From Pseudoclavibacter sp. CFCC 11306 (GTDB taxonomy: Bacteria > Actinomycetota > Actinomycetes > Actinomycetales > Microbacteriaceae), in contig NZ_WBKF01000003.1 in the NCBI RefSeq assembly GCF_008831235.1, positions 62,001-126,000 on the forward strand: a stretch of 64,000 nt of DNA, given 5' to 3'. The position numbers and the translations under genes were made by a program. Below, in pieces: positions 18,145 through 41,650 of the stretch. The notes under the pieces were generated by a model that made no database searches, was not told where the DNA came from, and saw only the letters and a list, made by a program, of their open reading frames with translations. Each line of letters starts with the position of its first letter. Position 1 is the first letter of the stretch.

Positions 18145-21100
18145 TCACCCCGCCGCGCCCAACGTCAAGAAGTCGTACAACCCCGCATCGACCGCATGCT
18201 CGAGGTGCAGCGTCGTGCGAACCACCGACACTTCACCCTTCTCAGCCGGCATCGTGAGCTGCTGTGCTTCGGCCGCCGCGGTCGTGACACGTCCCAGGTA
18301 GTAGAAATCGGTGCCCTCGGCATCACTCTTCTTCACGAACAGATGCAGCGCGATCTCACCGCCGAGAATCTGGCGCACATCCTTCGACTCCAACGTGCGC
18401 CGACTCTTCGAGAACCAGGTGAACGTGCGCTCGTCGACGAACGCGTCTTCGTACCGAGTGGTCTCGGCGATCTCATCACTCTTGTGATAGGTCACGAAGA
18501 TCGGGCAGGTGGCAGTCACCGGGTCGACCTTGTACCCGTACACCGTGCTCGCTTCGTTCGACGCCCAGTTGAGCACCCGCAGCGCATCTTTGCGCCCGTA
18601 CTTCTGCCCCACCACGAGATCAGAGCTGCCCACATATCGCTGAGCGTTGACGAGCAGCCCGGTCGCGATCATGTCGTCCAAGACGGATGCGAAGAATCCG
18701 TTGGCCAGATAAGCGTCAGTCAGGTCGTCAGTCGCCTTGCCGTCGATCACCAACGGCTGGCTGCTGTACTTCTTGCGTTCGGCCTGCGTGAAGAAGCTGA
18801 GGTCGAGCACGCGCCCCGCTGAACGTGCGCGCAGTTCCGACCTACCAGGCCCTATCGAATCTGCAACGCTGTCGGCTAAGTCAACCACCGCATCCGCATC
18901 ATGGCGCAGCCTTGCGAGCGCGTCACGCAGCACCACGAGCTCGGCGCGCCGCCGCCCGTTGAGCAACTCTTTCGTCACGAAGGTGAGCACGGCATCCTGC
19001 CATGGCGGCAGCACCGGCACCTCTTCGTGCGCCGCGGTCAGCAGCCGAGCGTAGTTCTCGAAGCCGTTCGCCAACACAACTGGGTCGACCGCTCCGGCCT
19101 CGGCGAAGTCAGCCAACCGCGGCGGCTCAGCCTGACGTGCACGCAGCTCGCGGTAGGCGTCGAGCAGCTGGCGTTTGGTATCGATGCGCGCGGTGTCGAT
19201 TGAGGCGAGCACCCGCTCGGCGGCGATTCTGTCAAAGCTCACCGTCGAGAGCCCGCTGAGTGTGCCCTCGCTGATCGCCCGACGCATCTGCTTGCGCAGG
19301 GCGTCACGATTGCGTGAGCGGTCGCCGAAGAGCGCGATCGGGATCATGTAGTTGTTCTGATAGTTGCCGATGAAGTCGACGACCACCAGGTACTCCTTGC
19401 CCGGCGCCTTGCGCAGCCCGCGACCGAGCTGCTGCACGAACACGATGCTCGACTGCGTCTGGCGCAGCATGATGATCTGGTTGACCTCGGGAATGTCGAT
19501 GCCCTCGTTGAAGATGTCGACGGTGAGCAGATAGTCAAGGCGTCCCTCGCGCAGATCGAGCACGAGCTCGTCGCGGCGCTGCTGATTGTCGCGTCCGCTC
19601 ACGGCAGCCGTGCGCAGCGGCCGACCGCCCAGGGTGTGCGTATTGAACTCGGCTGCGAGCGCCGCGGCCTCGGCGTTGCGACTGCAAAAGATGATGCCTT
19701 TGGGGGCGATGCCGGCCTGAGCGTGCAGCTCGATCTGACGCAGGATGTAGTGCGCACGCTCCGAGTCAGCGAGGCGCATCAATGTGCTCGGATCGTCGCC
19801 CAGTTCGCCGGCGTTCGTGAGGTACTCGGTGACGCCGTAATAGTGGAACGGGCAGAGCATCTCGGTTTCGAGCGCCTCGTTCAGGCGAATCTCGTAGGCG
19901 GTGTTGTAGTCGAACGCTCGAAAGATGTCGGCGCCGTCGGTGCGCTCCGGCGTGGCAGTCATACCGAGCAGGAACTTCGGGGCGAAGTGATCGAGGATGC
20001 GCTGGTAGCTGCCCGCCGCAGAACGATGCACCTCGTCGATCACGATGTAGTCAAAGGCATCTGGCGCGAACTGACTCCACGCGTCACCCGCGTTCAGCGA
20101 CTGCACTGTGGCGAAGACGTACCTGGCCGCAGCGTTCTTGTGCTGCCCGGCATAGAGGGCGAAATCTGGCGCGTCACCGTCGAGCACTTGCTGATACTCG
20201 GTCATCGCGCGGCGCAGAATCTGTTCGCGATGCACGACGAAGAGCATGCGACCGGAGCCCGTAGACTCGTGTTCGTGCACTGCACGCACGTCGAAGGCAG
20301 ACAGCAGCGTCTTGCCCGTGCCGGTCGCCGAGATGACGACGGCACGAGTCTCGCCCGCGTCGCGCAGCCGCTGCAGCGCATCGAGTGCACGCGCCTGCAT
20401 CGCGTTGGGTCGCAGACGTTCGACGACGTGCCATGCTCGCTCCCCCGGCCTGACCGACGGCGCCGACCCCGGCATCCGCGCCGGCGTCTGATCGGGCGCA
20501 TTCTCAGCTTCGGGCAGCTCGATCTCGACCTGCGCATCGCCCGGCCAGAAGACGTCGACTCGCTTGGGCACGAAGGTGCGCGCATACTCGTCGACCCACG
20601 ATTCGGTCAGCGGAATGCTCTCGGCCAGCTGCGCCTCGAGTTCGCTGTCGAGCATCGCCGTGATGCCGCTGTGGTGCAGGGCTGAGACGCGCAGGTTCCA
20701 TTCGACGTTGCCGTCAAGCGCCGCCTGGGTCAGGTTCGAACTGCCGACGATGCCCGTCGTGATGTCGCCCTGGCGAAACAGGTAGCCCTTGGCGTGAAAC
20801 GGCCGCCGGGCACTCGACGCACGATCACCTTGGAAGATGTACGTGGTGATGTTCGGCAGCGCGAGCAGCTCGCGAAACGCCCGCGGACTGTTGAACTGCA
20901 GGTAGTCAGAGGTGATGATGACGCCTCGACCTTCGAAGTCGATGAGCTCCTGCTTGAGCGTCGCGATCGCACCCGGAGTCACGAACGCAACTGAGAACGT
21001 GAACGAGTCTGCGATGCGCAGCTCGCGCCGCAGCGCGCGCAGCATGGTGTTGCCGTCGCGGTTGGCAATGAGCGTCGGCGCCAGCCGTGTGGTGGTCACC

Positions 21101-21168
21101 TGATCGGCGTCGACGAACCCATGCTGCAGGCCGGCCTGCAGCGCGCTGAGTTCGTTGTCTGGGTACAT
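18145..21168 (-). CDS. PLD-like nuclease / DEAD helicase / DUF3427 protein
   Basis: A 1007-residue, multi-domain protein. N-terminal phospholipase-D-like domain (about 45-200): the FHAKGYLF and GSSNLTQAAL motifs give an HxK and N set. Superfamily 2 helicase (about 250-640): AVVISATGTGKTLLSAFD (Walker A), VIDEVHRS (motif II, DEVH), GMTATPERTDG (motif III), and FVQQLGRGLRKAPGKEYL (motif VI). DUF3427 C-terminal region (about 700-1007): KYGRKDALRVLNW and FVTYHKSDEI. Such proteins resemble type III restriction helicases and are frequent in defense islands. It follows the NUDIX gene by 9 bp. The start is the ATG at 21168 (a TTG lies one codon upstream). Confidence 0.9.
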   Translation of the reverse strand: MYPDNELSALQAGLQHGFVDADQVTTTRLAPTLIANRDGNTMLRALRRELRIADSFTFSVAFVTPGAIATLKQELIDFEGRGVIITSDYLQFNSPRAFRELLALPNITTYIFQGDRASSARRPFHAKGYLFRQGDITTGIVGSSNLTQAALDGNVEWNLRVSALHHSGITAMLDSELEAQLAESIPLTESWVDEYARTFVPKRVDVFWPGDAQVEIELPEAENAPDQTPARMPGSAPSVRPGERAWHVVERLRPNAMQARALDALQRLRDAGETRAVVISATGTGKTLLSAFDVRAVHEHESTGSGRMLFVVHREQILRRAMTEYQQVLDGDAPDFALYAGQHKNAAARYVFATVQSLNAGDAWSQFAPDAFDYIVIDEVHRSAAGSYQRILDHFAPKFLLGMTATPERTDGADIFRAFDYNTAYEIRLNEALETEMLCPFHYYGVTEYLTNAGELGDDPSTLMRLADSERAHYILRQIELHAQAGIAPKGIIFCSRNAEAAALAAEFNTHTLGGRPLRTAAVSGRDNQQRRDELVLDLREGRLDYLLTVDIFNEGIDIPEVNQIIMLRQTQSSIVFVQQLGRGLRKAPGKEYLVVVDFIGNYQNNYMIPIALFGDRSRNRDALRKQMRRAISEGTLSGLSTVSFDRIAAERVLASIDTARIDTKRQLLDAYRELRARQAEPPRLADFAEAGAVDPVVLANGFENYARLLTAAHEEVPVLPPWQDAVLTFVTKELLNGRRRAELVVLRDALARLRHDADAVVDLADSVADSIGPGRSELRARSAGRVLDLSFFTQAERKKYSSQPLVIDGKATDDLTDAYLANGFFASVLDDMIATGLLVNAQRYVGSSDLVVGQKYGRKDALRVLNWASNEASTVYGYKVDPVTATCPIFVTYHKSDEIAETTRYEDAFVDERTFTWFSKSRRTLESKDVRQILGGEIALHLFVKKSDAEGTDFYYLGRVTTAAAEAQQLTMPAEKGEVSVVRTTLHLEHAVDAGLYDFLTLGAAG

Positions 21169-21177
21169 CAAGTCGCG

Positions 21178-21630
21178 TCAGTCGTCGTTGTCGGCGGATG
21201 CTGCGGCGCCCGCCTGCAGCCTCGCCTCGATCTCGTGCAGGTCGGCCTGCTGCAGCGCCTTTGCGGCGGGGATGTCGGCCGGGGCCCAGTCGAGGTCGGC
21301 CAGCTGGTCTTGGCCGAACCAGGTGAGGTGCGAGTGTTCGGTGAGCGTCGGGTGTCCGTCGGTGAGCACGGCGTAGTACGTGGTCAGCTGGATCGTGCCG
21401 AAGTCGTACTCATACGTCGTCGTCTCTATCCGCGACCCCACCTGAATGCTGCAGCGCAGCTCTTCGTGAATCTCGCGCACCAGCGCCTCGGCGCCGGTCT
21501 CGCCCGCCTCGATCTTGCCGCCGGGAAATTCCCACTTGCCTTCGAGTGCACGCCCCGGCCCGCGCTGCGCACACAGGATGCGACCCTTATGGACGATAGC
21601 GGCACCGACGACGGTGATGACCTTACTGAT
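21178..21630 (-). CDS. MutT-like NUDIX hydrolase, apparent ATC start
   Basis: A 150-residue protein beginning (M)SKVITVVGAAIVHKGRILCAQ. The NUDIX box GGKIEAGETGAEALVREIHEELRC has the catalytic Glu residues, but Arg replaces the usual Gly near its end. WEFPGGKIEAGE is typical of 8-oxo-dGTP diphosphatases. The first possible ATG in frame is at 21480, inside the NUDIX box, and no ATG, GTG or TTG exists between there and the upstream stop. The ATC at 21630-21628 lies 5 nt after a perfect AGGAGG and matches the family N-terminus. It is co-transcribed with the DUF3427 gene; DUF3427 and NUDIX genes are often neighbours. Confidence 0.8.
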   Translation of the reverse strand: MSKVITVVGAAIVHKGRILCAQRGPGRALEGKWEFPGGKIEAGETGAEALVREIHEELRCSIQVGSRIETTTYEYDFGTIQLTTYYAVLTDGHPTLTEHSHLTWFGQDQLADLDWAPADIPAAKALQQADLHEIEARLQAGAAASADNDD

Positions 21631-21932
21631 GGCTGCCTCCTGGCTGGGCTGGTCTACGCTGGGTGCCTCTCTTTGCAGGACACCACACGAATACCAGGAT
21701 AGGGGAAGCCTATACAGCCTTGCCTTGTCATCCCTACGCGCAGCGGCTAGAGGATCTTTCGTCCGTCTTGATCAGCTGCGAGAGATGACGCATTATCATG
21801 TCGCTGAGCCCCGCGAATGACTTTGCACCAAGTACACACGACCACACACGCAGACTATGGCGTCAGGGTAGCTGTTACGTCTTCTACAATGCCTCTGACT
21901 GCGCATCAACCCCACGCAGCTGCGCGTCCATT

Positions 21933-23738
21933 TCATCGTTCTTGGCGAGAAGGCACCAACGATTTGAGCCTCTCCTTGAGCTCCGCATCACACACATACA
22001 CATACGTTCCGAGCATGCCGCGAGTCATCAGCACTCGATAGATGTTGCGCACGAACTTCAGCAGCTCTTCGTCACTGTAGGTGATCCCAAGCTGTGCGTT
22101 GTTCTCTTTGCCCTTCTTGTCGTAGTAGTCGTCCCGGCTGAACATGAGCCTGCCGGTACTCCGGTCAAGCTGCAGATCACGACCGATGATCACACCCGCA
22201 TAGTTCAGCTCGTACCCCTGTACCGTGTGAATCGACCCCACCTGATCAATCGCATGCGGCGATGCGATCCAGTCGGTCTGTGCCCAGTTCCACTGCAGCG
22301 CCACGCCATCCTCAACGATGTCGGGCACTGACTTGTCATTCTTACTGTTCCACGGCCATGCGAAACCGGCGACCAGACGTGACAGCCCGACCTCGGCATC
22401 CCGTTTGCGTATCTCTTCGTGCATCTCTCCGAGATCGTCGAAGAAACGCAGATCGTATGCGTCACCGAAGCTCTTCGGTGCTGGCGGCTCATCACTCAGA
22501 AGACGGCCGACATACTCGATGTAGTCGCTGCCGCCTTTGACACGCAGTTGCGACGTCAACCGCAGCAGCCGATCACCGCGGCACGCAGCATCCAGCACCG
22601 ACCGCAACGTCGGTGTCGGCAGGTCGCTCGGCCGAACGGTCTGATCCGCGTCGATCAGCAGAATCTGGTTCGTGCTGCGTGCACGTATCCAGTCGAGCTG
22701 CGTGTAGTGCAGGTCATCTTCGCCGAAGAGCTTCGTATTGATGTCGATGAACTTCTTGTTCTGCGTACCGGACGACTGGTTCGCGCGCTGGCCCAGACGA
22801 TGGGCCTCGTCGACCAGCAGCAGGTCGTAATAGTCATCGCCGCTGCCGACGTCGAAGGGGGTGAGGACTTTGACCTCGCGCATATTTGGAATGCTCTTGA
22901 ACACTCGCCGCATCGATGTCCGCAACGACTGCTGCGGAACCACGATACCGATATCCATGTGCTGCAGCGCCTCGCGGTGCTCGCCGGCGAAGAAGTCAGA
23001 GAACAGAGAATTCATCTCGAACAGGTCGTCGTCGCTCGTGTTGCCGATGTCACGCAGCAGTTTGATCAGATAGATCGCGACGATGGTCTTCCCCGTGCCA
23101 GGATCTCCCTGGACCACAATGGTGCTGCCTCGCTGCGCTGCGCGATCGGCGCTCAGCGTCTCGAGAATCTGCTCGATCGCGACAGACTGATCAGTCGTCA
23201 GGCTCTTGAACGGCGATAGCTTGAACAGCTCGCTGTTCTCGATCTCGGGGATGCTGTGCGTAAAGACGCCCTCGGCGCGCAGCCGTTCGAAAATCTCGTG
23301 GAATCTCTTGCGATACGTTTCCCGGTCGAAGTAGTCAGCATCGACCAGCCCGGCATTGCGGTTAAGCACCTGGAAGGTGCCGTCTCCTTGGCACCATCCA
23401 ATCAGCTGGGACTCGAGGTCGAGACAGGCAGATTTGTTGAACGTCTCGTCGATAATCACGCGCACCTGCTCGAGATCACGCTTGACCTCGTTCTCGTGGT
23501 GCTGCCGCATCCTGGCGAGCGCATTGCCGGTCTCACCGACATAGATGCGCGGCCGGTGGATGCCATGGGCGCGTTGCCGCCGTCTGACTTGAGACGTCTG
23601 GTTGGTCTCGGCGTTGGCGCCGTCAATCAGATATACGACCGGCCAGTTCGTCAGTTTGTCATTGAGCGTGGCGTGCGTCTGGACATCGTCGATGTCGAAC
23701 GTGATGTGCTCGATGTCAAAGTCGGTCATACTTTGCAC
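21933..23738 (-). CDS. GIY-YIG nuclease fused to DUF2075 (Schlafen-like) helicase
   Basis: A 601-residue protein. GIY-YIG domain (about 33-115): VVYLIDG, then RIYVGETGNALARMRQH with the catalytic Arg, and LESQLIG with the Glu. DUF2075 ATPase (about 175-601): VVQGDPGTGKT (Walker A, near 210), YDLLLVDEAHRLGQ (Walker B), LLIDADQTV (motif III), LTSQLR (motif IV), SIHTVQGYELNYAGV (motif V) and YRVLMTRGM (motif VI). All ATPase motifs look intact. It likely acts on nucleic acid. Its start overlaps the MazG-like gene by 23 bp (ATG at 23738; 23729 is also possible), so both are translated from one mRNA with the RhuM gene. Confidence 0.9.
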   Translation of the reverse strand: MQSMTDFDIEHITFDIDDVQTHATLNDKLTNWPVVYLIDGANAETNQTSQVRRRQRAHGIHRPRIYVGETGNALARMRQHHENEVKRDLEQVRVIIDETFNKSACLDLESQLIGWCQGDGTFQVLNRNAGLVDADYFDRETYRKRFHEIFERLRAEGVFTHSIPEIENSELFKLSPFKSLTTDQSVAIEQILETLSADRAAQRGSTIVVQGDPGTGKTIVAIYLIKLLRDIGNTSDDDLFEMNSLFSDFFAGEHREALQHMDIGIVVPQQSLRTSMRRVFKSIPNMREVKVLTPFDVGSGDDYYDLLLVDEAHRLGQRANQSSGTQNKKFIDINTKLFGEDDLHYTQLDWIRARSTNQILLIDADQTVRPSDLPTPTLRSVLDAACRGDRLLRLTSQLRVKGGSDYIEYVGRLLSDEPPAPKSFGDAYDLRFFDDLGEMHEEIRKRDAEVGLSRLVAGFAWPWNSKNDKSVPDIVEDGVALQWNWAQTDWIASPHAIDQVGSIHTVQGYELNYAGVIIGRDLQLDRSTGRLMFSRDDYYDKKGKENNAQLGITYSDEELLKFVRNIYRVLMTRGMLGTYVYVCDAELKERLKSLVPSRQER

Positions 23739-24045
23739 TGCGCCCCTTCGCCTTCTCGACAGGGTACTTCTCTGCCGTCACCTGCAGCTTCTCTTCGACG
23801 ATCGTGTCTGGGTCGAGGCCGAGCGCATCCGCCAGATAGAGGCAGTAGGTCAGCACGTCGGCAAGCTCGCCGCGCACGGCATCGTGGTCAGCCTCTGCCG
23901 GATCTGTCGACCATTGGAAACACTCGAGCAACTCAGCAGCCTCGATGCTGATGCTCTTCGCCAAGTTCTCTGGTGTGTGAAACTGCTGCCAGTCGCGTTC
24001 AGCGGTGAAGGCCCGCAGTTTCTGCATGAGCTCGATATTCCCCAT
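23716..24045 (-). CDS. MazG-like nucleotide pyrophosphohydrolase
   Basis: A 109-residue all-helical NTP-PPase of the MazG/RS21-C6 type. The EExxE-like motif is in SIEAAELLECFQW, the second metal site in GELADVLTYCLYLAD, and the tail motif is EKYPVEKAKG. Such enzymes hydrolyse dNTPs to the monophosphate, which in a defense setting could deplete or purge nucleotides. The gene is sandwiched between RhuM (gap 3 bp) and GIY-YIG/DUF2075 (overlap 23 bp). Confidence 0.9.
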   Translation of the reverse strand: MGNIELMQKLRAFTAERDWQQFHTPENLAKSISIEAAELLECFQWSTDPAEADHDAVRGELADVLTYCLYLADALGLDPDTIVEEKLQVTAEKYPVEKAKGRSAKYDRL

Positions 24046-24048
24046 AGA

Positions 24049-25119
24049 TCAGGACTCCCTGCTGTCACCCTCATCGATCAGCCCCAGAGCAAACCGATCA
24101 AAGTCGCTTATGTACTGATGATCTTGTACAATCCGATACTTCTCAAACTCGGTCTCAGCGTGCAGTTTGGCCTGCTCATGTGAGATACGACCAGGGCCTG
24201 TGAGTATTTCGGTCTCGTTGAACTCCAAGAATCCATCGAGGCGACTGGCCCAATCTTCCATTGACATGGGAATCTTGCGAGAAGCCTGTAATTCTGCGTA
24301 GTCCAAGTACATCGAAACAAGCCGGTTCAAGAAGTCCAGTTCAGCGCTGGCGAGATAGTTCTTGGCGACCGAGACATCGGAACGCACGATCTTTCCGTGC
24401 GGAGCCGCTGCCCAAGTCGTCAGCCCCATCCGCTCTCGGTCAGCATCCGCACGCTCGACGATGAGTTCGGCTGCCGTATGTCGGTGCGTAGCCCAGTGCA
24501 ATTTGTTCTGCACGAGTGCAAAGAAGGCGTGTGTTGTTGCAGCGTCAGGATCATAGTCGAAAGCCGTTGCATAGAGATCAGTGACTTTCTGATAGAACTT
24601 ACGCTCGGACGCGCGAATCTCACGGACAAGGTCGAGCTGGCGCTCAAAGTACTCATCGGTGAACATGTGTCCGCTCTTCAGCCGCTCAGCGTCCATGACC
24701 CATCCTTGGATCGTGAAGTCTTTCACGACCTGCCCCGCCCACTTACGAAACTGCACTGCGCGAGCGTTGTTCACCTTGAATCCGACCGCAACAATCGCCT
24801 GGAGGTTGTAGTGCTTGGTTCGATAGCGTTTGCCGTCACTCGCAGTTATTCGGAAATCCCGAATAACTGCTTTCTCCGCGAGCTCACCGTCTTTGAAGAT
24901 CCGTTTCAGGTGCTCGTTGATCGTGGACACGCTCGTGCCATACACCTCAGCCATGAGCTTCTGACTCAACCAGATGTTCTCGTCTTCATAGCGCAACTCA
25001 AAGCTCCGCTCGTCGGCCCCTGTTCCTCCACTCGCCGCAATGAAGGTCAGATACTCCGCAGCGGATGAGCGCACGACGCGCTGATTCGACGCCCCATCCT
25101 CATTCCCATTGTTCGCCAT
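24049..25119 (-). CDS. RhuM-family protein
   Basis: A 356-residue protein of the virulence RhuM family. Residues about 40-135 hold the conserved block ENIWLSQKLMAEVYGTSVSTINEHLKRIF (an HTH-like segment), AVIRDFRITASDGKRYRTKHYNL and AIVAVGFKVNNARAVQFRKWA. A helical C-terminal part includes REIRASERKFYQKVTDLYATA and WASRLDGFLEFNE. The biochemical role is not known; RhuM genes are common in defense islands and pathogenicity loci. It is the first gene of the three-gene operon and is transcribed away from the CRISPR locus. Confidence 0.87.
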   Translation of the reverse strand: MANNGNEDGASNQRVVRSSAAEYLTFIAASGGTGADERSFELRYEDENIWLSQKLMAEVYGTSVSTINEHLKRIFKDGELAEKAVIRDFRITASDGKRYRTKHYNLQAIVAVGFKVNNARAVQFRKWAGQVVKDFTIQGWVMDAERLKSGHMFTDEYFERQLDLVREIRASERKFYQKVTDLYATAFDYDPDAATTHAFFALVQNKLHWATHRHTAAELIVERADADRERMGLTTWAAAPHGKIVRSDVSVAKNYLASAELDFLNRLVSMYLDYAELQASRKIPMSMEDWASRLDGFLEFNETEILTGPGRISHEQAKLHAETEFEKYRIVQDHQYISDFDRFALGLIDEGDSRES

Positions 25120-25148
25120 TCTCCACCCATCGATCGCCCTTCAAGATT

Positions 25149-25177
25149 TTGACTTGTTCAATACCTCAGCCTAAACT
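25149..25177 (+). promoter_or_regulatory. Promoter P1 for a long tracrRNA
   Basis: TTGACT (25149-25154), 17 bp, TAAACT (25172-25177), pointing toward cas9. This is the best -35/-10 pair in the island. Transcription would begin near 25184 and run through the 9-bp stem at 25188-25214, the repeat-mimic and the tracrRNA. Confidence 0.6.
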
Positions 25178-25187
25178 GACCATAGCA

Positions 25188-25214
25188 TGCTTGTATGGTT
25201 TATAAATACAAGCA
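25188..25214. promoter_or_regulatory. 9-bp inverted repeat between RhuM and tracrRNA
   Basis: TGCTTGTAT and ATACAAGCA are perfect arms around a 9-bp AT-rich centre. It may be an operator for the divergent RhuM operon and tracrRNA, or the 5' stem of the long tracr transcript starting near 25184. Confidence 0.45.
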
Positions 25215-25241
25215 CGCCACTAGTTGACACTTTGTATTCAT

Positions 25242-25299
25242 GTTGGGTCGACTCGTTCCCTGGGGCGGCAGGGCCCTGCGCCCTGCCGCCCCGACCAGG
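25242..25299 (+). other. CRISPR-repeat mimic followed by a 12-bp hairpin
   Basis: Bases 25242-25261 match the first 20 nt of the crRNA-sense repeat at 16 or 17 positions (GTTGGG and ACTCGTTC are identical). They can pair with the tracr anti-repeat at 25362-25377 through 15 bp interrupted by one small internal loop. A perfect hairpin follows (GGGGCGGCAGGG/CCCTGCCGCCCC, 25262-25292, reinforced by CCTGG/CCAGG). No T-run follows it, so it is not a normal terminator. Confidence 0.6.
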
Positions 25300-25324
25300 A
25301 CAATGTCTAGCTCGTCGCGATTAG

Positions 25325-25355
25325 TTGCGCCACCGCACGGTCCACGCGCTAAACT
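25325..25355 (+). promoter_or_regulatory. Promoter P2 for the short tracrRNA
   Basis: TAAACT (25350-25355) lies 7 nt before the anti-repeat, with a weak TTGCGC (25325-25330) at 19 bp. Initiation near 25362 would give a tracrRNA whose 5' end is the anti-repeat itself. Confidence 0.45.
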
Positions 25356-25359
25356 CGCT

Positions 25360-25445
25360 GTGAACGAGTAACCCAATAAGGCTTCCTTCTCGGAAGCTTG
25401 ATTTCTCCAGTGCCCCCGGCTCCTGTCGGGGGCACTTCGTCTTTT
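25360..25445 (+). ncRNA. tracrRNA (type II-C)
   Basis: The anti-repeat GTGAACGAGTAACCCAAT (25360-25377) pairs with the crRNA-sense repeat GTTGGGATTACTCGTTCAC: 12 bp, a one-base bulge (A7 of the repeat), then 6 bp including a terminal G-U. Two stem-loops follow, GCTTCC/GGAAGC (25381-25397) and a perfect 9-bp GTGCCCCCG/CGGGGGCAC (25410-25435). The RNA ends at TTCGTCTTTT. It lies directly upstream of cas9 on the same strand, the usual place for Cas9 partner RNAs. It guides RNase III processing of crRNA and binds Cas9. Confidence 0.9.
25410..25445 (+). terminator. tracrRNA terminator
   Basis: A 9-bp GC-rich stem with an 8-nt loop is followed by a short T-rich tail (TTCGTCTTTT). It doubles as the last tracrRNA stem-loop and overlaps the -35 area of the presumed cas9 promoter (TATATT at 25463-25468). 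Confidence 0.7.
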
Positions 25446-25542
25446 GGATGTCGTACGCACGGTATATTCTGAGCAGAGCTTCAAGTTCTGCTTCACAGCT
25501 AGCGTTTCACGCCGTCATTCATCGGTCACCGGGGGAAACTGC

Positions 25543-28500
25543 ATGATTACTCACTTTGATAGCCAAATCAAGTATCGAATCGGCATCGACGTCGGCGAAT
25601 CTGGAATCGGCAAGGCTGCCATCCAAGTCGATGATGATGGCAATCCGATCGCCATTTTGAACGCCACAGTCACAATCATCGACGGTGGCAAAGACCCATC
25701 CAGCGGCAAGACGCCGCAGTCACGACTTGCGGTCTCAGGCTTGGCAAGACGTACTCGCAGGCTGCTGCGCCATCGCCGCAAACGTATCCTTGCGTTGCAA
25801 AAGCTTCTGGACGAGTTGGGCATCATAGATATGCGTCCAGCTCTCAGCCCCTACATCAACCCTTGGCAGGCACGGCACGACCTCTATCTCAAGGATGAGA
25901 CCGATTACATCCAACGGCAAGCGAAGCTACGGATCGCGATTGAGCATATTGCCCGACACCGAGGATGGCGTAACCCCTGGTGGAGCCTCGAGCGCCTTCG
26001 CGCATCTGCTGCTGAAGGCCCCACTGCGGCTTTCGTTGCGACCCAAGAACGGGCTTCTGAGACGCTTAACGTGGCGGTCGAAGACCTGCCATCGCTCGGA
26101 GCAATCGGCGCGCTGACTCCTCCTGAGGTGCCGTTGCGTCCAAGAACAGGCAAGAAGGCCCTCGCACAAACGAAGAAGTTCAGAATCTTCGCCGAAAAGA
26201 TTCTGCAAGAAGACCAGCTGAGAGAGCTCGAAGCAATCCTCGTACAGCAGGGCGTTCCAGAGAAGGACCGCCAGAGAATCGTCGCGGCGGTCTTCCACAC
26301 CGAAAAGCCAACTGTTCCGAAGGAACGCGTCGGCAAGGATCCATTCGACGGATTGCCCCGTGTCCCACGCACCTCGCTCGAGTTTCAGGAGTTTCGCATC
26401 CGGTCAACGATTGCGAATCTCACAGATCGCACCCGCGGCAAGGATGCCCGGCTGACGAAAGCGCAACGCGATGTCATCATTGACAAGCTTCTGGCGTGGG
26501 AGGATGAGGTGTCGCCGACGTGGGAGGAGCTCGCGTCGTGGATCGATCGCGAGAGCTCGCAGGTGACGTTCCCCATCTCTGATGATCCTCATCTTTCCTC
26601 TCCTCCGGTTGACAAGACCGCCGCGGTTCTCGCGCGGAACCGAAAGAAGCTCCCGAGTCTATCTGTGCTCTGGGAAAAGCTGTGGACCGATGCTCAGCGC
26701 AGTGAGTTTGCCGTGTATCTCGGAGAGACGACCGCATTTGACGAGGACTCTCTGATTGCAGAAGACCTCACTGAGCTTCCTGAAGGTGAACGCGAACTCC
26801 TTGATCAGATCGATGCATTTGACAAGAGCCGAGCATCATATGGCATCGAAACCTTGCGCAGGCTCAACGATCACATGCGCACCAGCGAGACTGGCTCGCT
26901 AACGGAAGCACTCAAAGAGGTCTTCAAGAAAGACCCAGGGTGGAAGCCCGCTCCGGAGAGTCTATTTGACCATGTCGACCACCCAGTCGTCGATCGCGTG
27001 CTGACCGATGTCGGTCGCTGGCTCAAGACCATTGTGGACAGATACGGACTCCCTCAGCAGGTGAACGTCGAGCACGTGCGCAGTGCTTTCCTCGGCCCTG
27101 AGGCGAAGGCGGAGTACAACCGTGAGATCAGCTCGAACCGCATCCGCAACGAGCGCGCACGCCAAGAACTGCACGTGGCTAACGTCGAGCACACTCGCCG
27201 ATCTGACCTTCGCCGCTACGAAGCAGTGCAGATGCAGAACCAACAGTGTCTGTATTGCGGAATCACGCTCAACGTTGAGCAGCCGGACAAGGTGTTCAAT
27301 TTTTCCCAGGTCGAGATGGATCACATCGTGCCGAGAGCCGGTGGTGGTTCGAACAGGCGAGAGAATCTTGTCGCCGTCTGCAAGCCATGCAACAGTCGCA
27401 AGTCCAACGAAATTTTCAGCGTCTGGGCAACCCGTGAGGAACAAGAAAGGCGCCCTGGGGTCAGTGTCGCAGAGGCGTTGCAACGAGTCCGCGACTGGCA
27501 AAAGCCGAATGGCATGACTTATGCCAGGTTTCGACAGCTCCAGAACAGTGTTCGGCTGCGGCTCCGCAGAACGACAGAAGACGCGCCGCTCGACGAACGC
27601 GCAATGGCTTCCACCGCATATTCTGCGCGCGTCGTCACGGAACGTATCGACGGTTTCCTGCGTCAGCACCTTAAAGACATCCGACGCACCGATCCATCTA
27701 TCCTGACAACGATCGACACGTCGACTGGCGAAGTCACACCTCTTCCGATGCACAACTGGGTGCAGGTGTACCAGGGACGCATCACAGCAGAAGCACGAAA
27801 ATCCAGCGGCGTCGAAGGCAAACTGAGCCTCCGAGCGGCCCAGCACAAGACGCGCTTTGATCGTAGACATCACGCGGTGGACGCCGCGGTCATTTCGCTC
27901 ATGGGAGTGAAGCCTGCCCGTGTGCTCGCCCAGCGCAGTGAGCAGCGTGACAGCGCACGCCTCGCCAGCTCCACCGGGCCAGAAACCAAGGAGTGGAAGA
28001 CCGTCGGTAACACCGATGACGCGTTCATCCGCTGGAGGCAGGCGATGCACCAACTCGCAGAATTCGTCAAGCAAGCCATTGCCGACGACGAGATCGTCGT
28101 CATGCGGCCGCTGCGTCTCGGCCCCAACGTTGGTGCGTTACACAGCCCGAACCCCGAACCGCTCGTCAGCAAGCCGGTCAGTGAGCCGTTCACCTCTCAA
28201 GAAGTGCTCCGCATTGTGGACCGTGACCTCTACGAGACCGCTGAGAGATTTCAAGGCGATATCGATGGCATGGCAGCATTACCTGACAGGCCTCATACCG
28301 GCACCATCCTCGATGTGCCCGATGCCAGCATCAAGCTCTTTCAATCGGCTTCCTCGGGGTTGAGTCCGAAGCTTGCGCTCCGCGACGGTGCAGCTGAGAT
28401 CGGTAGTTCTCAGCATCACGTCCGTGTTTATGCCTTCCGCGATAAGAAGGGGAAGATCATATACGCGCAGCTTCGCGTGTTCGCTGGGGAGTTTGCTCGT

Positions 28501-29034
28501 ATCGGATTCTTGAAATCGGGAGTTGATCTGTTCACTGCTCCGCTGCCATCCTGGTCACAGGCCATGCGCTGCGCACCATCAAAACTCCGTGAATCAATCA
28601 AAGATGGCACTGCACACCAAATCGGATGGCTGGTGAGAGGAGATGAACTAGAGTTCCCGGACGCTGCTGAGGTGATGAGTATCGGTGAGGTCAGCGGCAT
28701 TACTTGTGGTGTAACCCGAGAGCGGAGGTGGATCGTCACCGGGTTCGAGACCAACGTCATCCTGAACTTGAAACCAGCCTACTTAGCTGAGGAAGGCCTC
28801 CCTCCGGTCTCGTCCGCACACTCCAGCGAAGTGTCCGCCGAGACGAGGAAGGCCATCCAACGCGGATGGCGAGCTTCGCTCAATAAAGTTCTGCAGATGA
28901 ACCCAACGATCATCAGGCGCACGGCAAGTGGTTCGCCACGCTGGCGCGACGCTCACGACGGACTGCCCGTTTCTTGGAATGTGTTGCAGTCAACAGCAAA
29001 GGTGTTTGGTGATGGCACAGTGGCGAGTTCTTGA
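25543..29034 (+). CDS. cas9: CRISPR-associated endonuclease Cas9 (type II-C)
   Basis: A 1163-residue Cas9. RuvC-I is YRIGIDVGESGIG with Asp16. An Arg-rich bridge helix spans about 67-88 (LARRTRRLLRHRRKR). RuvC-II is VNVEHVRS with Glu510. The HNH domain has QVEMDHIVPRAGGGSN with Asp593/His594, Asn608 and Asn617, plus two Cys pairs (569/572 and 613/616) that look zinc-binding. RuvC-III is DRRHHAVDAAV with His777 and Asp780. All nuclease residues are present, so it should cut both strands. The ATG at 25543 follows a GGGGGA ribosome site and places RuvC-I at residue 11; the frame open from 25444 lacks family sequence. The 3' end overlaps cas1 by 23 bp. No csn2 or cas4 is present. Confidence 0.97.
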   Translation: MITHFDSQIKYRIGIDVGESGIGKAAIQVDDDGNPIAILNATVTIIDGGKDPSSGKTPQSRLAVSGLARRTRRLLRHRRKRILALQKLLDELGIIDMRPALSPYINPWQARHDLYLKDETDYIQRQAKLRIAIEHIARHRGWRNPWWSLERLRASAAEGPTAAFVATQERASETLNVAVEDLPSLGAIGALTPPEVPLRPRTGKKALAQTKKFRIFAEKILQEDQLRELEAILVQQGVPEKDRQRIVAAVFHTEKPTVPKERVGKDPFDGLPRVPRTSLEFQEFRIRSTIANLTDRTRGKDARLTKAQRDVIIDKLLAWEDEVSPTWEELASWIDRESSQVTFPISDDPHLSSPPVDKTAAVLARNRKKLPSLSVLWEKLWTDAQRSEFAVYLGETTAFDEDSLIAEDLTELPEGERELLDQIDAFDKSRASYGIETLRRLNDHMRTSETGSLTEALKEVFKKDPGWKPAPESLFDHVDHPVVDRVLTDVGRWLKTIVDRYGLPQQVNVEHVRSAFLGPEAKAEYNREISSNRIRNERARQELHVANVEHTRRSDLRRYEAVQMQNQQCLYCGITLNVEQPDKVFNFSQVEMDHIVPRAGGGSNRRENLVAVCKPCNSRKSNEIFSVWATREEQERRPGVSVAEALQRVRDWQKPNGMTYARFRQLQNSVRLRLRRTTEDAPLDERAMASTAYSARVVTERIDGFLRQHLKDIRRTDPSILTTIDTSTGEVTPLPMHNWVQVYQGRITAEARKSSGVEGKLSLRAAQHKTRFDRRHHAVDAAVISLMGVKPARVLAQRSEQRDSARLASSTGPETKEWKTVGNTDDAFIRWRQAMHQLAEFVKQAIADDEIVVMRPLRLGPNVGALHSPNPEPLVSKPVSEPFTSQEVLRIVDRDLYETAERFQGDIDGMAALPDRPHTGTILDVPDASIKLFQSASSGLSPKLALRDGAAEIGSSQHHVRVYAFRDKKGKIIYAQLRVFAGEFARIGFLKSGVDLFTAPLPSWSQAMRCAPSKLRESIKDGTAHQIGWLVRGDELEFPDAAEVMSIGEVSGITCGVTRERRWIVTGFETNVILNLKPAYLAEEGLPPVSSAHSSEVSAETRKAIQRGWRASLNKVLQMNPTIIRRTASGSPRWRDAHDGLPVSWNVLQSTAKVFGDGTVASS

Positions 29035-29887
29035 CTTCCAGAAGTACGAAGGCCCAATAGCTGCGAGACAGGGCAAGCTCTTCGCCGGAGAACGGAGCGT
29101 TCCACTCGCCGATATCTCGACGATTCTCACGGGCCCGCGCTGTTCGCTTCATGCGAGCTTGCTCGATCGAGCTGCACATTTTGAGATCATTCTGCTCGCA
29201 TGCGATTGGCGTGGCGTACCGATCTCGGCTGCACTCCCTTGGAGCTCGAATACACGGGTTGGAGCAAGACACGCTGCGCAGAGCCAGCTGAGTGAAGGCA
29301 GGCGGAAGAACGCGTGGATGCAACTGGTCAAGGCAAAAATCGCAGGGCAACGAGCAAATCTTCATCCTGAGTCTGCCGCGTACCGTTCACTGCAGCGGTT
29401 GCAGCAGGAAGTTCGATCAGGTGATCCTTCAAATACTGAAGCACAAGCGGCAAAGCTGTATTGGAAGAGTGTATTTCTCGATGAGCCTGGCTTTGTGCGA
29501 GACGCGGCCATGAGTACTGATAGAAATGCACTACTGAACTATGGATACACAATCCTGAGGGGCGCCGTGATCCGTAACATTGTCGCTGCCGGGCTCTGGC
29601 CGACACTGGGGTTCTGGCATCATCACCGCGGCAATGTGTTTGCACTCGCAGATGACTTGATCGAGCCGTTCCGTCCTGTTGTGGACCACGTCGTTCAGGG
29701 GTTCTCAATTGATACTGAGCTGGGCGATCTAGGTGTGCGTGCGAGCCTCGTCGCAAGTCTCGACATGCCGTTCGCGACTAATGGCCATACGGTCGGAACC
29801 ATGATCATGGAACTCGCACAGACGGTCGGCGCATACGTTGAAGGAGAGGGTACGCGCCTGCAAGTATCTTCTTGGCGAGTGGCCTAA
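29012..29887 (+). CDS. cas1: CRISPR-associated integrase Cas1 (type II)
   Basis: A 291-residue Cas1, starting MAQWRVLDFQKYEG. The active-site region of the C-terminal domain is seen in LNYGYTILRGAVIRNIVAAGLWPTLGFWHHH (with the preceding Asn-Tyr and His-His-His stretch) and VFALADDLIEPFRPVVD (Asp/Glu metal ligands). The order matches type II Cas1, and the length is usual. Its start codon lies inside cas9 (23-bp overlap), implying translational coupling. It forms the Cas1-Cas2 spacer integrase. Confidence 0.95.
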   Translation: MAQWRVLDFQKYEGPIAARQGKLFAGERSVPLADISTILTGPRCSLHASLLDRAAHFEIILLACDWRGVPISAALPWSSNTRVGARHAAQSQLSEGRRKNAWMQLVKAKIAGQRANLHPESAAYRSLQRLQQEVRSGDPSNTEAQAAKLYWKSVFLDEPGFVRDAAMSTDRNALLNYGYTILRGAVIRNIVAAGLWPTLGFWHHHRGNVFALADDLIEPFRPVVDHVVQGFSIDTELGDLGVRASLVASLDMPFATNGHTVGTMIMELAQTVGAYVEGEGTRLQVSSWRVA

Positions 29888-29891
29888 GCGG

Positions 29892-30236
29892 ATGGCTGAT
29901 CCAGTGTGGCTCCTTCTTATGTTCGATCTGCCAGTCGTAACGAAGTCGCAGCGCCGAGAAGCAACCCAGTATCGCAAGATGCTGCTCGACTTCGGTTTCG
30001 ATCAGGTGCAATTGAGCGTGTACTGCAAGTACGTCATCAACGCCTCTGGGCTACGCAGCATCGTACGCCCAATCAAGCATCAGATTCCGCTAGAAGGGCA
30101 GGTGCGGGTCTTGCAACTAACTGACACTCAGTGGGCCAGCCAGTACCGTTTTTGGGGCCCTGCAAGTCAGGATCCCGAGAAAAGGCCCGAGGCTCTTGAA
30201 CTATTTGATACTTGGGACTTGCCTGGATCCGCATAA
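29892..30236 (+). CDS. cas2: CRISPR-associated protein Cas2
   Basis: A 114-residue Cas2. MADPVWLLLMFDLPVVTKSQRREATQYRKML shows the beta1-strand Asp (FDLPV) and the following helix (positions 1-30). GFDQVQLSVYCKYV is the second strand region. It bridges Cas1 dimers during integration. The ATG at 29892 lies 4 bp after the cas1 stop. The stop codon sits in the loop of a perfect 16-bp hairpin, 23 bp before the first repeat. Confidence 0.93.
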   Translation: MADPVWLLLMFDLPVVTKSQRREATQYRKMLLDFGFDQVQLSVYCKYVINASGLRSIVRPIKHQIPLEGQVRVLQLTDTQWASQYRFWGPASQDPEKRPEALELFDTWDLPGSA

Positions 30237-30259: not shown

Positions 30260-33200
30260 CAAGTCTAGCTGGGATAGTGAACGAGTAATCCCAACACTCA
30301 GCTCGGCGGTGCTCCTTGCTGGTCAAGTCTAGCTGGGATAGTGAACGAGTAATCCCAACTATCCCACGGGTTCGTTGACGGGTCAGGCAAGTCTAGCTGG
30401 GATAGTGAACGAGTAATCCCAACTCCGGCATCAAGAACATCGAGAACTTTCCAAGTCTAGCTGGGATAGTGAACGAGTAATCCCAACAGAGGAATGGACG
30501 GTGACCGTCGAGGACCAAGTCTAGCTGGGATAGTGAACGAGTAATCCCAACCGGTTCTCAATGCTGCAGATGGTGATGTCAAGTCTAGCTGGGATAGTGA
30601 ACGAGTAATCCCAACTTTCGGCGTACGTGCCGATGCGCCACCTCAAGTCTAGCTGGGATAGTGAACGAGTAATCCCAACACAAGGCTGACGTCAATGCTC
30701 ATCCGCTCAAGTCTAGCTGGGATAGTGAACGAGTAATCCCAACAAAACGACGAGCGACTGCTCGACGACCTCAAGTCTAGCTGGGATAGTGAACGAGTAA
30801 TCCCAACTCGGGCAGCCGAGGAAAGCGCGCGCTGCCAAGTCTAGCTGGGATAGTGAACGAGTAATCCCAACTCGCGGAAATGCAGAAGAGCGGGTTCGAC
30901 AAGTCTAGCTGGGATAGTGAACGAGTAATCCCAACCGGATCGTTGTTCAACCGCGCCTTGGTGCAAGTCTAGCTGGGATAGTGAACGAGTAATCCCAACA
31001 GCATGCTCGGGCTCTTGCGGGTCTGTCCAAGTCTAGCTGGGATAGTGAACGAGTAATCCCAACTGTGCCCAATCGTGGCGGACACCCACCTCAAGTCTAG
31101 CTGGGATAGTGAACGAGTAATCCCAACCATCGCGTCACGCGCTTCGACTCGGCGACAAGTCTAGCTGGGATAGTGAACGAGTAATCCCAACCGTGGAGAG
31201 GGATCGGCGAGCGTTCGATCAAGTCTAGCTGGGATAGTGAACGAGTAATCCCAACTGCCCGATTCGTCGTCGGTGTCCGCTGACAAGTCTAGCTGGGATA
31301 GTGAACGAGTAATCCCAACGTGATGAAGATGACACGCTGTTTTACATCAAGTCTAGCTGGGATAGTGAACGAGTAATCCCAACCGGACGGGGCTGTGCAG
31401 ATGATCGGGGGCAAGTCTAGCTGGGATAGTGAACGAGTAATCCCAACCCGCCGGATCTGTCGCGAAGAACGCGCACAAGTCTAGCTGGGATAGTGAACGA
31501 GTAATCCCAACACGTCCGCCGGTATGACGAGTGGGCTGCCAAGTCTAGCTGGGATAGTGAACGAGTAATCCCAACACGTCCGCCGGTATGACGAGTGGGC
31601 TGCCAAGTCTAGCTGGGATAGTGAACGAGTAATCCCAACTTGGCGCGCATGTGGCGCGTCTGCCGGACAAGTCTAGCTGGGATAGTGAACGAGTAATCCC
31701 AACGGGCTGCAGCGCGTTCGTGGCTGCGGCACAAGTCTAGCTGGGATAGTGAACGAGTAATCCCAACACCAGGCGGATGTCAACGCGCATCCGCTCAAGT
31801 CTAGCTGGGATAGTGAACGAGTAATCCCAACTTGACGGTGTGCGATCTGCGACCGTTGGCAAGTCTAGCTGGGATAGTGAACGAGTAATCCCAACGCAGC
31901 CCCGTTCGGAGCTAGTGGCGTGTCAAGTCTAGCTGGGATAGTGAACGAGTAATCCCAACCGCGTGCAGAATGATCCGGCGAAGCTCTCAAGTCCAGCTGG
32001 GATAGTGAACGAGTAATCCCAACATCGGCTCGTCGCTATGGCTATGGAGGTCAAGTCTAGCTGGGATAGTGAACGAGTAATCCCAACGAAACGACGCGGG
32101 GCCGCCGGGCGATTACAAGTCTAGCTGGGATAGTGAACGAGTAATCCCAACTGTGGCTCCGGCTCCGGCTGCGGCGCCTCAAGTCTAGCTGGGATAGTGA
32201 ACGAGTAATCCCAACTACGTCTTCTTCTCTCTCGTATTCGTCACAAGTCTAGCTGGGATAGTGAACGAGTAATCCCAACCCGTCCAAACTTCGCACCGTC
32301 GACCACTCAAGTCTAGCTGGGATAGTGAACGAGTAATCCCAACAACCGGTGCGGTGGCCCAGCGGACACCGCAAGTCTAGCTGGGATAGTGAACGAGTAA
32401 TCCCAACCCCTGTCGAAGCCAAAACTAACGGCGGTCAAGTCTAGCTGGGATAGTGAACGAGTAATCCCAACTCGTGGCTGCTCGGTGGCGTCCTGGCTGC
32501 AAGTCTAGCTGGGATAGTGAACGAGTAATCCCAACGGAAATACCCGTCTTTGTCTCGGATCTCCAAGTCTAGCTGGGATAGTGAACGAGTAATCCCAACT
32601 GTCCGGTTTGCAACGCGAAGATTCAGGCAAGTCTAGCTGGGATAGTGAACGAGTAATCCCAACAGCGACGACCGCCGACGGGCAAGACAACCAAGTCTAG
32701 CTGGGATAGTGAACGAGTAATCCCAACGCGACCGCACCGGACGCCAACGACACGTCAAGTCTAGCTGGGATAGTGAACGAGTAATCCCAACTTATCGCAC
32801 CGCGCCCAGCCAGGGCAGGCAAGTCTAGCTGGGATAGTGAACGAGTAATCCCAACGACGTGTCGTGCCTGCCGCGCGGGCAATCAAGTCTAGCTGTGATA
32901 GTGAACGAGTAATCCCAACGACAGATGATACGCGGGATGCCCGCGCACAAGTCTAGCTGGGATAGTGAACGAGTAATCCCAACCGATGCTCAATGCTGCA
33001 GAGGGTGATGTCAAGTCTAGCTGGGATAGTGAACGAGTAATCCCAACTAGTTATGGCGCAGCGTGAGCGCTCCGACAAGTCTAGCTGGGATAGTGAACGA
33101 ATAATCCCAACTGCCCTTTCTCTTGTGGTCTGCCCGTCGCAAGTCTAGCTGGGATAGTGAACGAATAATCCCAACAGCAGCTGCCGTTCGATGTCGGCGA

Positions 33201-33751
33201 TGCCAAGTCTAGCTGGGATAGTGAACGAGTAATCCCAACAACATCCAGGGTGACATCGCAGACGCGACAAGTCTAGCTGAGATAGTGAACGAATAATCCC
33301 AACTCAGTCTCACCCGCTGCAATGATGTACGCAAGTCTAGCTGGGATCGTGAACGAGTAATCCCAACACCGCCGACGGGTGGCAGCGCATCCTCACAAGT
33401 CTAGCTGGGATAGTGAACGAGTAATCCCAACGGCCTCATCGGGCACCGCCAGGTCGGTTCAGGTCTAGCTGGATAGTGAACGAGTAATCCCAACGGGACG
33501 GAAGTGTGCTGGCGCAGGTCTACAAGTCTAGCTGGGATAGTGAACGAGTAATCCCAACTGCGGTGTAAGCTTGCCGGTAACCCATTCAAGTCTAACTGGG
33601 GTAGTAAACGAGTAATCCCAACTCACTCACGACGGGCAGACGGTCACGACCAAGTCTAGCTGGGATAGTGAACAATTAATCCCAACGGCTCAACCATAAT
33701 CAGGTTGATCAGACTCAAGTCAAGTTGAACTAATGAATGGTTAGTTTTATG
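30260..33751 (-). CRISPR. Type II-C CRISPR array, 55 repeats (last degenerate), 54 spacers
   Basis: The 36-bp repeat in the crRNA sense (minus strand) begins GTTGGGATTACTCGTTCACT and ends ATCCCAGCTAGACTTG. Units repeat every 64 bp (36 + 28) with only three 1-bp exceptions, at the right end. Variants cluster to the right: repeats 28, 42, 45, 46, 48, 49, 51 (35 bp), 53 and 54 have changes, and the one at 33716 is largely lost. The first 27 appear identical. Hence the integration end is at cas2 and the oldest spacers are on the right. Spacers 20 and 21 are identical; 5/43 and 7/24 are near-identical pairs. Each repeat ends (minus strand) in TAGACTTG, a possible -10 box. Confidence 0.98.
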
Positions 33752-41450: not shown

Positions 41451-41650
41451 AAAGCGGCTTCACAGAATCTGGATCGAACCGCCTGACACACGGCAGTCGT
41501 CGGGTACCGGTAGTCTTGACCCACGTTCAAGAGTTGTGGCTGACAGTACCTGGCTGGCCGCACGGCAACCCGATCCATCTTTCCGGGTGCCCCAGGAGAA
41601 GAACGGGCATGTGACAGACGTCGCGCGCAAGCTCTGATGGAAGGCACACC

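Follow-up and report, generated by a model that had tools for sequence, protein, structure and literature searches.

The window analysed here, a 64,000-nucleotide stretch of DNA from a member of the Microbacteriaceae whose genome comprises 2.35 Mb in 3 contigs, contains a CRISPR-Cas locus in which a tracrRNA gene, cas9, cas1, cas2 and a CRISPR array follow one another (Table 1). Among the genes tested from position 18145 up to the array we found cas9, cas1 and cas2 and no fourth cas gene, which is the gene content that defines type II-C, and there is no position for csn2, the array lying directly after cas9-cas1-cas2. The array adjoins cas2 and the genes tested upstream are not cas genes, and the layout is therefore that of type II-C. 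The cas1 reading frame as listed overlaps cas9, and its true start is probably further in. Divergent from cas9, the interval 18145-25119 holds likely defence genes, which include a DUF3427 helicase with a PLD-like domain (PADLOC mREase_IV), a Schlafen-type helicase, a MazG-like protein and a RhuM-family protein.

Table 1. Features of the cas9 locus, given as positions within the window.
Feature	Position	Strand	Basis or remark
RhuM-family gene	24049-25119	divergent from cas9	upstream of cas9; PADLOC PDC-S05
Candidate promoter of the putative long tracrRNA	25149-25177	+	TTGACT-17-TAAACT; predicted start near 25184
Hairpin TGCTTGTAT...ATACAAGCA, 5′ end of the putative long RNA	25188-25214	+	sequence, MFE structure
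Guide-like segment	25214-25241	+	taken as 28 nt like the array spacers; last 20 nt are 25222-25241
Repeat mimic	25242-25261	+	shares 16 of 20 nt with the start of the crRNA repeat; complementary to the anti-repeat
13-bp G+C-rich hairpin between mimic and anti-repeat	25262-25292	+	predicted fold
Likely -10 box of the short tracrRNA	25350-25355	+	TAAACT; family-conserved position; predicted start near 25362
tracrRNA anti-repeat GTGAACGAGTAACCCAA	25360-25376	+	complementary to the crRNA repeat
First tracrRNA stem-loop after the anti-repeat (nexus position)	25379-25399	+	predicted fold
tracrRNA terminator	25409-25445	+	hairpin 25409-25436 and T-rich tail; predicted fold, terminator call
cas9	25543-29034	+	1163 aa from ATG 25543 (start chosen in this analysis); TIGR01865, 3.9e-50
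cas1	28928-29887	+	ORF from the first GTG; TIGR03639, 1.8e-59
cas2	29838-30236	+	ORF as listed; TIGR01573, 3.6e-14
CRISPR array	30260-33686	- (crRNA strand)	repeat GTTGGGATTACTCGTTCACTATCCCAGCTAGACTTG, 36 nt

The anti-repeat, stem-loop and terminator of the tracrRNA gave the expected predicted fold, and because the plus-strand anti-repeat carries the complement of the repeat, the crRNAs are read on the minus strand. In type II-C systems crRNA promoters are known to lie inside the repeats. To place the locus among its relatives we compared it with 80 and then 20 further loci whose Cas9s are about 30-40% identical to that of the window; these yielded 83 tracr loci (the window and 82 others, from Actinomycetota, some records being duplicates). 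In the crRNA sense, 64 of 65 arrays have a TANNNT box within the final 11 nt of the repeat, the sole exception (L005) apparently owing to the script having taken that array in the wrong orientation, and such repeat ends fit predicted promoters inside the repeats across these II-C arrays. Similarly, a TANNNT box stands just before the anti-repeat in 79 of the 83 tracr loci, whereas 200 shuffles averaged 34.4 and never exceeded 46; the anti-repeat is followed by TAA in 79 of these loci as well (window included). Given this conserved box, a short tracrRNA whose start falls within the anti-repeat is probably what the compared loci normally make, and the working form here. An Rfam search of the window gave no tracrRNA match, a result that is uninformative in that the model was silent in 14 of 14 control genomes as well.

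About 0.1 kb upstream of the anti-repeat, and on the correct strand, lies a segment that the earlier note had described as a close copy of the 5′ end of the crRNA repeat. Indeed, GTTGGGTCGACTCGTTCCCT is identical to the repeat GTTGGGATTACTCGTTCACT at 16 of 20 positions, whereas the next 16 nt agree at only 5 positions, a chance-like level (Fisher p 0.006 for the difference). On either strand of the window, array excluded, no second site reaches 16 of 20 and one other reaches 15. When the genome was searched with GTTGGGATTACTCGTTC, allowing up to 3 mismatches in 17, 55 matches were returned, namely 54 in the array and the mimic; the reversed pattern, used as a control, gave 1. The mimic also keeps the first six bases of the repeat and the length of the repeat before ACTCGTTC, which argues that it copies the repeat and is not merely an inverted anti-repeat. 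Its duplex with the anti-repeat is predicted at -22.7 kcal/mol, as compared to -27.8 kcal/mol for the true repeat. This energy was reached by 0 of 1000, 1 of 300 and 3 of 5000 shuffles, run on slightly different segments, and by 1 of 5000 once the G+C-rich hairpin had been cut out; when 1469 window segments outside the array were scored, just two formed a better duplex, both of them over the anti-repeat's own antisense. A chance origin is thus unlikely, at roughly 1e-3 to 5e-5 from the shuffles and from an estimate based on the genome match count. By match, position, strand and predicted fold the likeness is real and well placed, and we read it as a genuine copy of the repeat kept ahead of the tracrRNA gene.

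Two further candidates in this region were rejected. Read backwards the mimic resembles an anti-repeat, and we therefore considered a second tracrRNA on the minus strand; that strand carries no terminator there and, on inspection by eye, no TAAG with a stem-loop downstream. In addition, CAATGTCTAGCT (25300-25311) looks like the opposite end of the repeat taken in antisense, and backwards it holds a TAGACA box comparable to the TAGACT of the repeats. As a piece of a split anti-repeat it is too weak, since 8 sites in the window with the array excluded, this one among them, match equally well.

An RNA reading from the candidate upstream promoter to the tracr terminator (25184-25445) has a predicted minimum free energy of -124.4 kcal/mol, against -83.1 kcal/mol (sd 4.7) for 200 shuffles, a z of -8.8 that is helped by the G+C-rich hairpin. 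From its 5′ end the predicted parts are a hairpin, a guide-like stretch that is mostly unpaired, the mimic, hairpins, the anti-repeat, a stem-loop and the terminator, so that the fold supports the single-guide order proposed in the earlier note. Forcing the mimic (25241-25261) to remain unpaired raised the energy to -109.9 kcal/mol, a cost of 14.5 kcal/mol. The 15 bp of pairing claimed for mimic and anti-repeat proved about right: the predicted helix has 16 pairs, 14 with 25360-25376 together with G25242-U25377 and U25241-A25378, of which 15 have a probability of 0.97 or more and the last 0.81, and the anti-repeat nucleotides pair with the mimic at a mean probability of 0.93. An unpaired step at mimic positions 8-9 adjoins the place of the bulged A in the crRNA repeat, which is position 7. 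A crRNA repeat supplied in trans together with the long RNA gave -137.4 kcal/mol when paired, as compared to -124.4 and -1.0 kcal/mol for the two apart, and on modelled energy alone the repeat can still displace the mimic. The G+C-rich hairpin was not called as an intrinsic terminator.

The promoter from which such an RNA would start is less distinctive. The TTGACT-17-TAAACT arrangement is present as described, but it could not be upheld as a good promoter: in the 601 bp scanned for consensus promoter sites one was found, against a shuffle mean of 0.5 (sd 0.7), and this chance-level match is weak evidence for a promoter when taken alone. The inverted repeat TGCTTGTAT/ATACAAGCA just downstream lies within an A+T-rich stretch (25120-25241 has 41% G+C, the window 63%), and it could be a candidate operator for the divergent RhuM gene.

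We then asked what the guide-like segment might recognise. Folded alone, 25215-25242 has an energy of 0, i.e. it is unstructured, and the 28 nt allotted to the guide is also the length of 51 of the 52 intervals of the array. Its 3′ ends of 11 and 9 nt, TTTGTATTCAT and TGTATTCAT, have no second copy genome-wide, a guide 17-mer allowing up to 3 mismatches found only itself in the genome, and no other site in the window shares at least 8 nt of the 3′ end. As had been noted earlier, the guide end and the cas9 leader have only the 6 nt ATTCAT (25517-25522) in common. Up to 2 mismatches from CTTTGTATTCAT, two other sites occur in the window, at 22731 and 41825, which is no more than chance (6 of 100 shuffles equal that count). 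Around the starts of cas9 and the RhuM gene, the 20-nt guide agrees best with a minus-strand site at 25202, where 13 of 20 positions are shared but the 3′ seed is just 2. We therefore rejected autoregulation by way of a genomic target for any guide that ends at 25241, the match near cas9 being 6 nt at most. A phage search with 25178-25262 gave no match, an IMG/VR search limited to an exact 19-mer gave none, and a plasmid search with 25100-25360 gave no match to the guide, its two weak hits both being to the G+C-rich hairpin part. A fixed anti-phage or anti-plasmid guide accordingly found no counterpart in the phage, plasmid and IMG/VR sets searched, and was set aside.

The same mimic and anti-repeat complementarity, for which the earlier note had looked to homologous loci, did not recur in those compared. 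The duplex test covered 83 of 101 sequences, those in which the tracrRNA was located, and the window had the lowest z of all 83 tracr loci (-4.2), followed by L040 at -2.4 (p 0.03); only 1 of the 83 reached a p of 0.01 or less. A comparable mimic was thus found in none of the 82 other tracr loci, nor in three near relatives (L033, L034 and L036) from the remaining 18 sequences, whose anti-repeats were picked by eye. Similarly, in an automatic screen of 64 other array-bearing loci, none of the top three sense matches in each equalled that of the window near a located anti-repeat; sense matches in L067 and L110 that score at least as high as the window's were discarded, as they lie over the tracrRNAs of those same loci on the opposite strand. 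Genome samples from the family (398), order (396), class (394) and phylum (396), which overlapped in part and in the case of class and phylum were searched only at E <= 1e-180, held no Cas9 relative above about 40% identity. The best identity was 40% in these samples and 38% in a separate search. A search of genome contigs for closer relatives found nothing, plasmids returned none at E <= 1e-50, and IMG/VR returned none in a search that reaches close relatives only. The mimic is therefore lineage-specific as far as these loci go, with Cas9s only about 30-40% identical to that of the window, and it is not thereby meaningless.

The closest parallel is the long tracrRNA of Streptococcus pyogenes type II-A, tracr-L, a natural single-guide RNA (Workman et al. 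2021, as presented in the portions consulted of PMC8616872 and PMC11417352). According to the same portions, tracr-L relies on 11 matching nucleotides in the cas promoter, next to a PAM, and a short tracrRNA form arises from another promoter of the same locus (PMC8616872, PMC11417352); it is reported only in some type II-A systems in what was consulted of PMC8616872. The present locus resembles it in having, by sequence and predicted fold, a repeat-like segment upstream that pairs in cis with the anti-repeat. The TAAACT at 25350, in the -10 position seen in 79 of the 83 loci, is a candidate box from which a short form may start. The locus differs in being type II-C and not II-A, in having a guide without a match in the cas promoter or elsewhere in the genome, and in that its long transcript is a prediction. 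Among the open-access papers that our literature searches listed, none was seen to describe a type II-C tracr-L.

Other non-canonical RNAs offer more partial likenesses. In Francisella, a hybrid of tracrRNA and scaRNA guides Cas9 to repress host genes (PMC8616872, in part), and the II-C system of Neisseria meningitidis has a scaRNA described, in the part consulted of PMC13431127, as a non-array RNA with a non-immune role. Like the scaRNAs of Francisella novicida and N. meningitidis, the putative RNA considered here would come from a type II locus but not from its array and would have a non-immune role, the Francisella one working as a hybrid with tracrRNA; in contrast, the mimic lies in cis, on the same strand upstream of the tracrRNA with no terminator called between them, and a chromosomal target for the 3′ part of the guide was not found. 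The Racr RNAs, anti-CRISPRs that viral genomes carry as solitary repeat mimics (PMC10651486, in part), are likewise repeat-like RNAs that could occupy an effector, but they are found in viruses whereas this mimic sits beside its host's own tracrRNA. With other Actinomycetota type II-C tracrRNAs the locus shares the succession of anti-repeat, TAA, stem-loop and terminator close to cas9, and it is set apart from the 82 others by the upstream mimic. A study of II-C loci examined helices formed inside the array's upstream region, together with those joining that region to the spacer of the extraneous crRNA (PMC12080349), and the region upstream of the tracrRNA is not treated in the part of that study consulted.

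How, then, might a repeat mimic have come to lie upstream of this tracrRNA? Our tentative preference, one we hold as possible and not as established by the modelled fold, is a lineage-specific, minor long tracrRNA that would form a single-guide RNA either without a target or with one still to be found. The main rival, close behind and itself a somewhat doubtful one, is a decayed CRISPR repeat of no present function, either the sense copy left behind or a repeat caught there as the locus took shape. A proposed origin of tracrRNAs is from copies of the repeat in inverted orientation, and such a relic would account for the lack of a guide target and of conservation, for the weak promoter match, and for a second repeat-like scrap nearby, even though CAATGTCTAGCT is matched equally well at other places in the window. 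A decayed repeat would be expected to show similarity over its whole length, yet here the similarity is confined to the part that pairs, as the Fisher test above indicates, although insertion of the hairpin could have displaced the 3′ half. Mere chance similarity within an unconstrained intergenic region we regard as improbable: a few shuffles do reach the duplex energy (3 of 5000), the feature is absent from the homologues tested and the reversed control also gives one genome match, yet the one such match in 4.7 Mb of strand sits on the correct strand and only some 0.1 kb away from the anti-repeat, for which the probability is about 5e-5 (an estimate for a 200-nt target) or, by shuffles, about 6e-4.

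Two further readings would give the upstream RNA a guiding role. In one, to which we attach little credence, an RNA from 25149 would end or be cut near the G+C-rich hairpin and act like a scaRNA, its guide and mimic pairing in trans with the short tracrRNA. Modelled on its own, the fragment 25184-25300 does fold and carries the hairpin on its 3′ side, and the Francisella tracrRNA-scaRNA hybrid is a precedent (PMC8616872, in part), yet no intrinsic terminator was called at that hairpin, the guide has no genomic target, and guide and mimic partly pair with each other within this 5′ fragment. Autoregulation of the S. pyogenes type, by which a long tracrRNA would send Cas9 to its own promoter and repress cas9-cas1-cas2, is very improbable, and less probable than any of the others. 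The order of parts is the same as in tracr-L, and ATTCAT is common to guide and cas9 leader; however, the known system uses an 11-nt match and a PAM (PMC8616872 and PMC11417352, as far as consulted), here at most 6 contiguous nucleotides at the 3′ end agree near cas9, and neither the 9-nt nor the 11-nt guide end recurs in the genome. The S. pyogenes-style repression of cas9 that the earlier note had taken as its model is thus not borne out by the genome search. With no genomic partner for the 3′ part of the guide, a long form would probably not work as a promoter-directed repressor, and with the short tracrRNA as the family norm it would not be needed.

On the preferred reading of a minor long tracrRNA, we infer that a small amount of transcript from the candidate promoter at 25149 would read through to the tracr terminator. 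The mimic would then fold onto its own anti-repeat in two stems, the lower of 6-8 pairs and the upper of 8, parted by an unpaired step (mimic positions 8-9) that falls near the bulge of the crRNA:tracrRNA duplex (repeat position 7), and Cas9 could bind the long RNA as a ready-made single-guide RNA, while the short tracrRNA from the 25350 -10 box would serve normal immunity. If active, the long RNA would more likely tie up Cas9, the anti-repeat or both, as a brake or sponge; alternatively, its guide may be aimed at an element outside the collections searched. That type II-C independently evolved a natural single-guide RNA without a chromosomal target, part of the tracrRNA locus being transcribed as a self-paired guide that works as a sponge or brake and limits active Cas9, we consider unlikely. 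Should the long RNA exist, type II-A would no longer be the sole home of natural single-guide RNAs, and its lack of a chromosomal target would point to Cas9 being controlled by occupancy instead of promoter binding. If the mimic is instead a decayed repeat, it would offer a rare glimpse of the origin of a tracrRNA gene.

Several features of the window stand apart from the mimic. A phage search with the array, made to infer the PAM, gave no match. Spacers 7 and 24 (30680-30707 and 31768-31795) are near-copies of each other whose differences fall mostly in one codon position, and the same is true of spacers 5 and 43 (30552-30579 and 32984-33011), as if each pair came from homologous genes of related phages; degenerate patterns for both pairs had no match in IMG/VR. 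Elsewhere in the array, spacers 20 and 21 (31512-31539 and 31576-31603) are identical. Most of the variant repeats and a damaged unit lie in 33076-33686, at the end far from cas2, an arrangement that points to spacer acquisition next to cas2 even though the crRNAs are read towards that end. Beyond the array, a SAM-IV riboswitch is present at 41525-41639 (Rfam RF00634, 72.7 bits).
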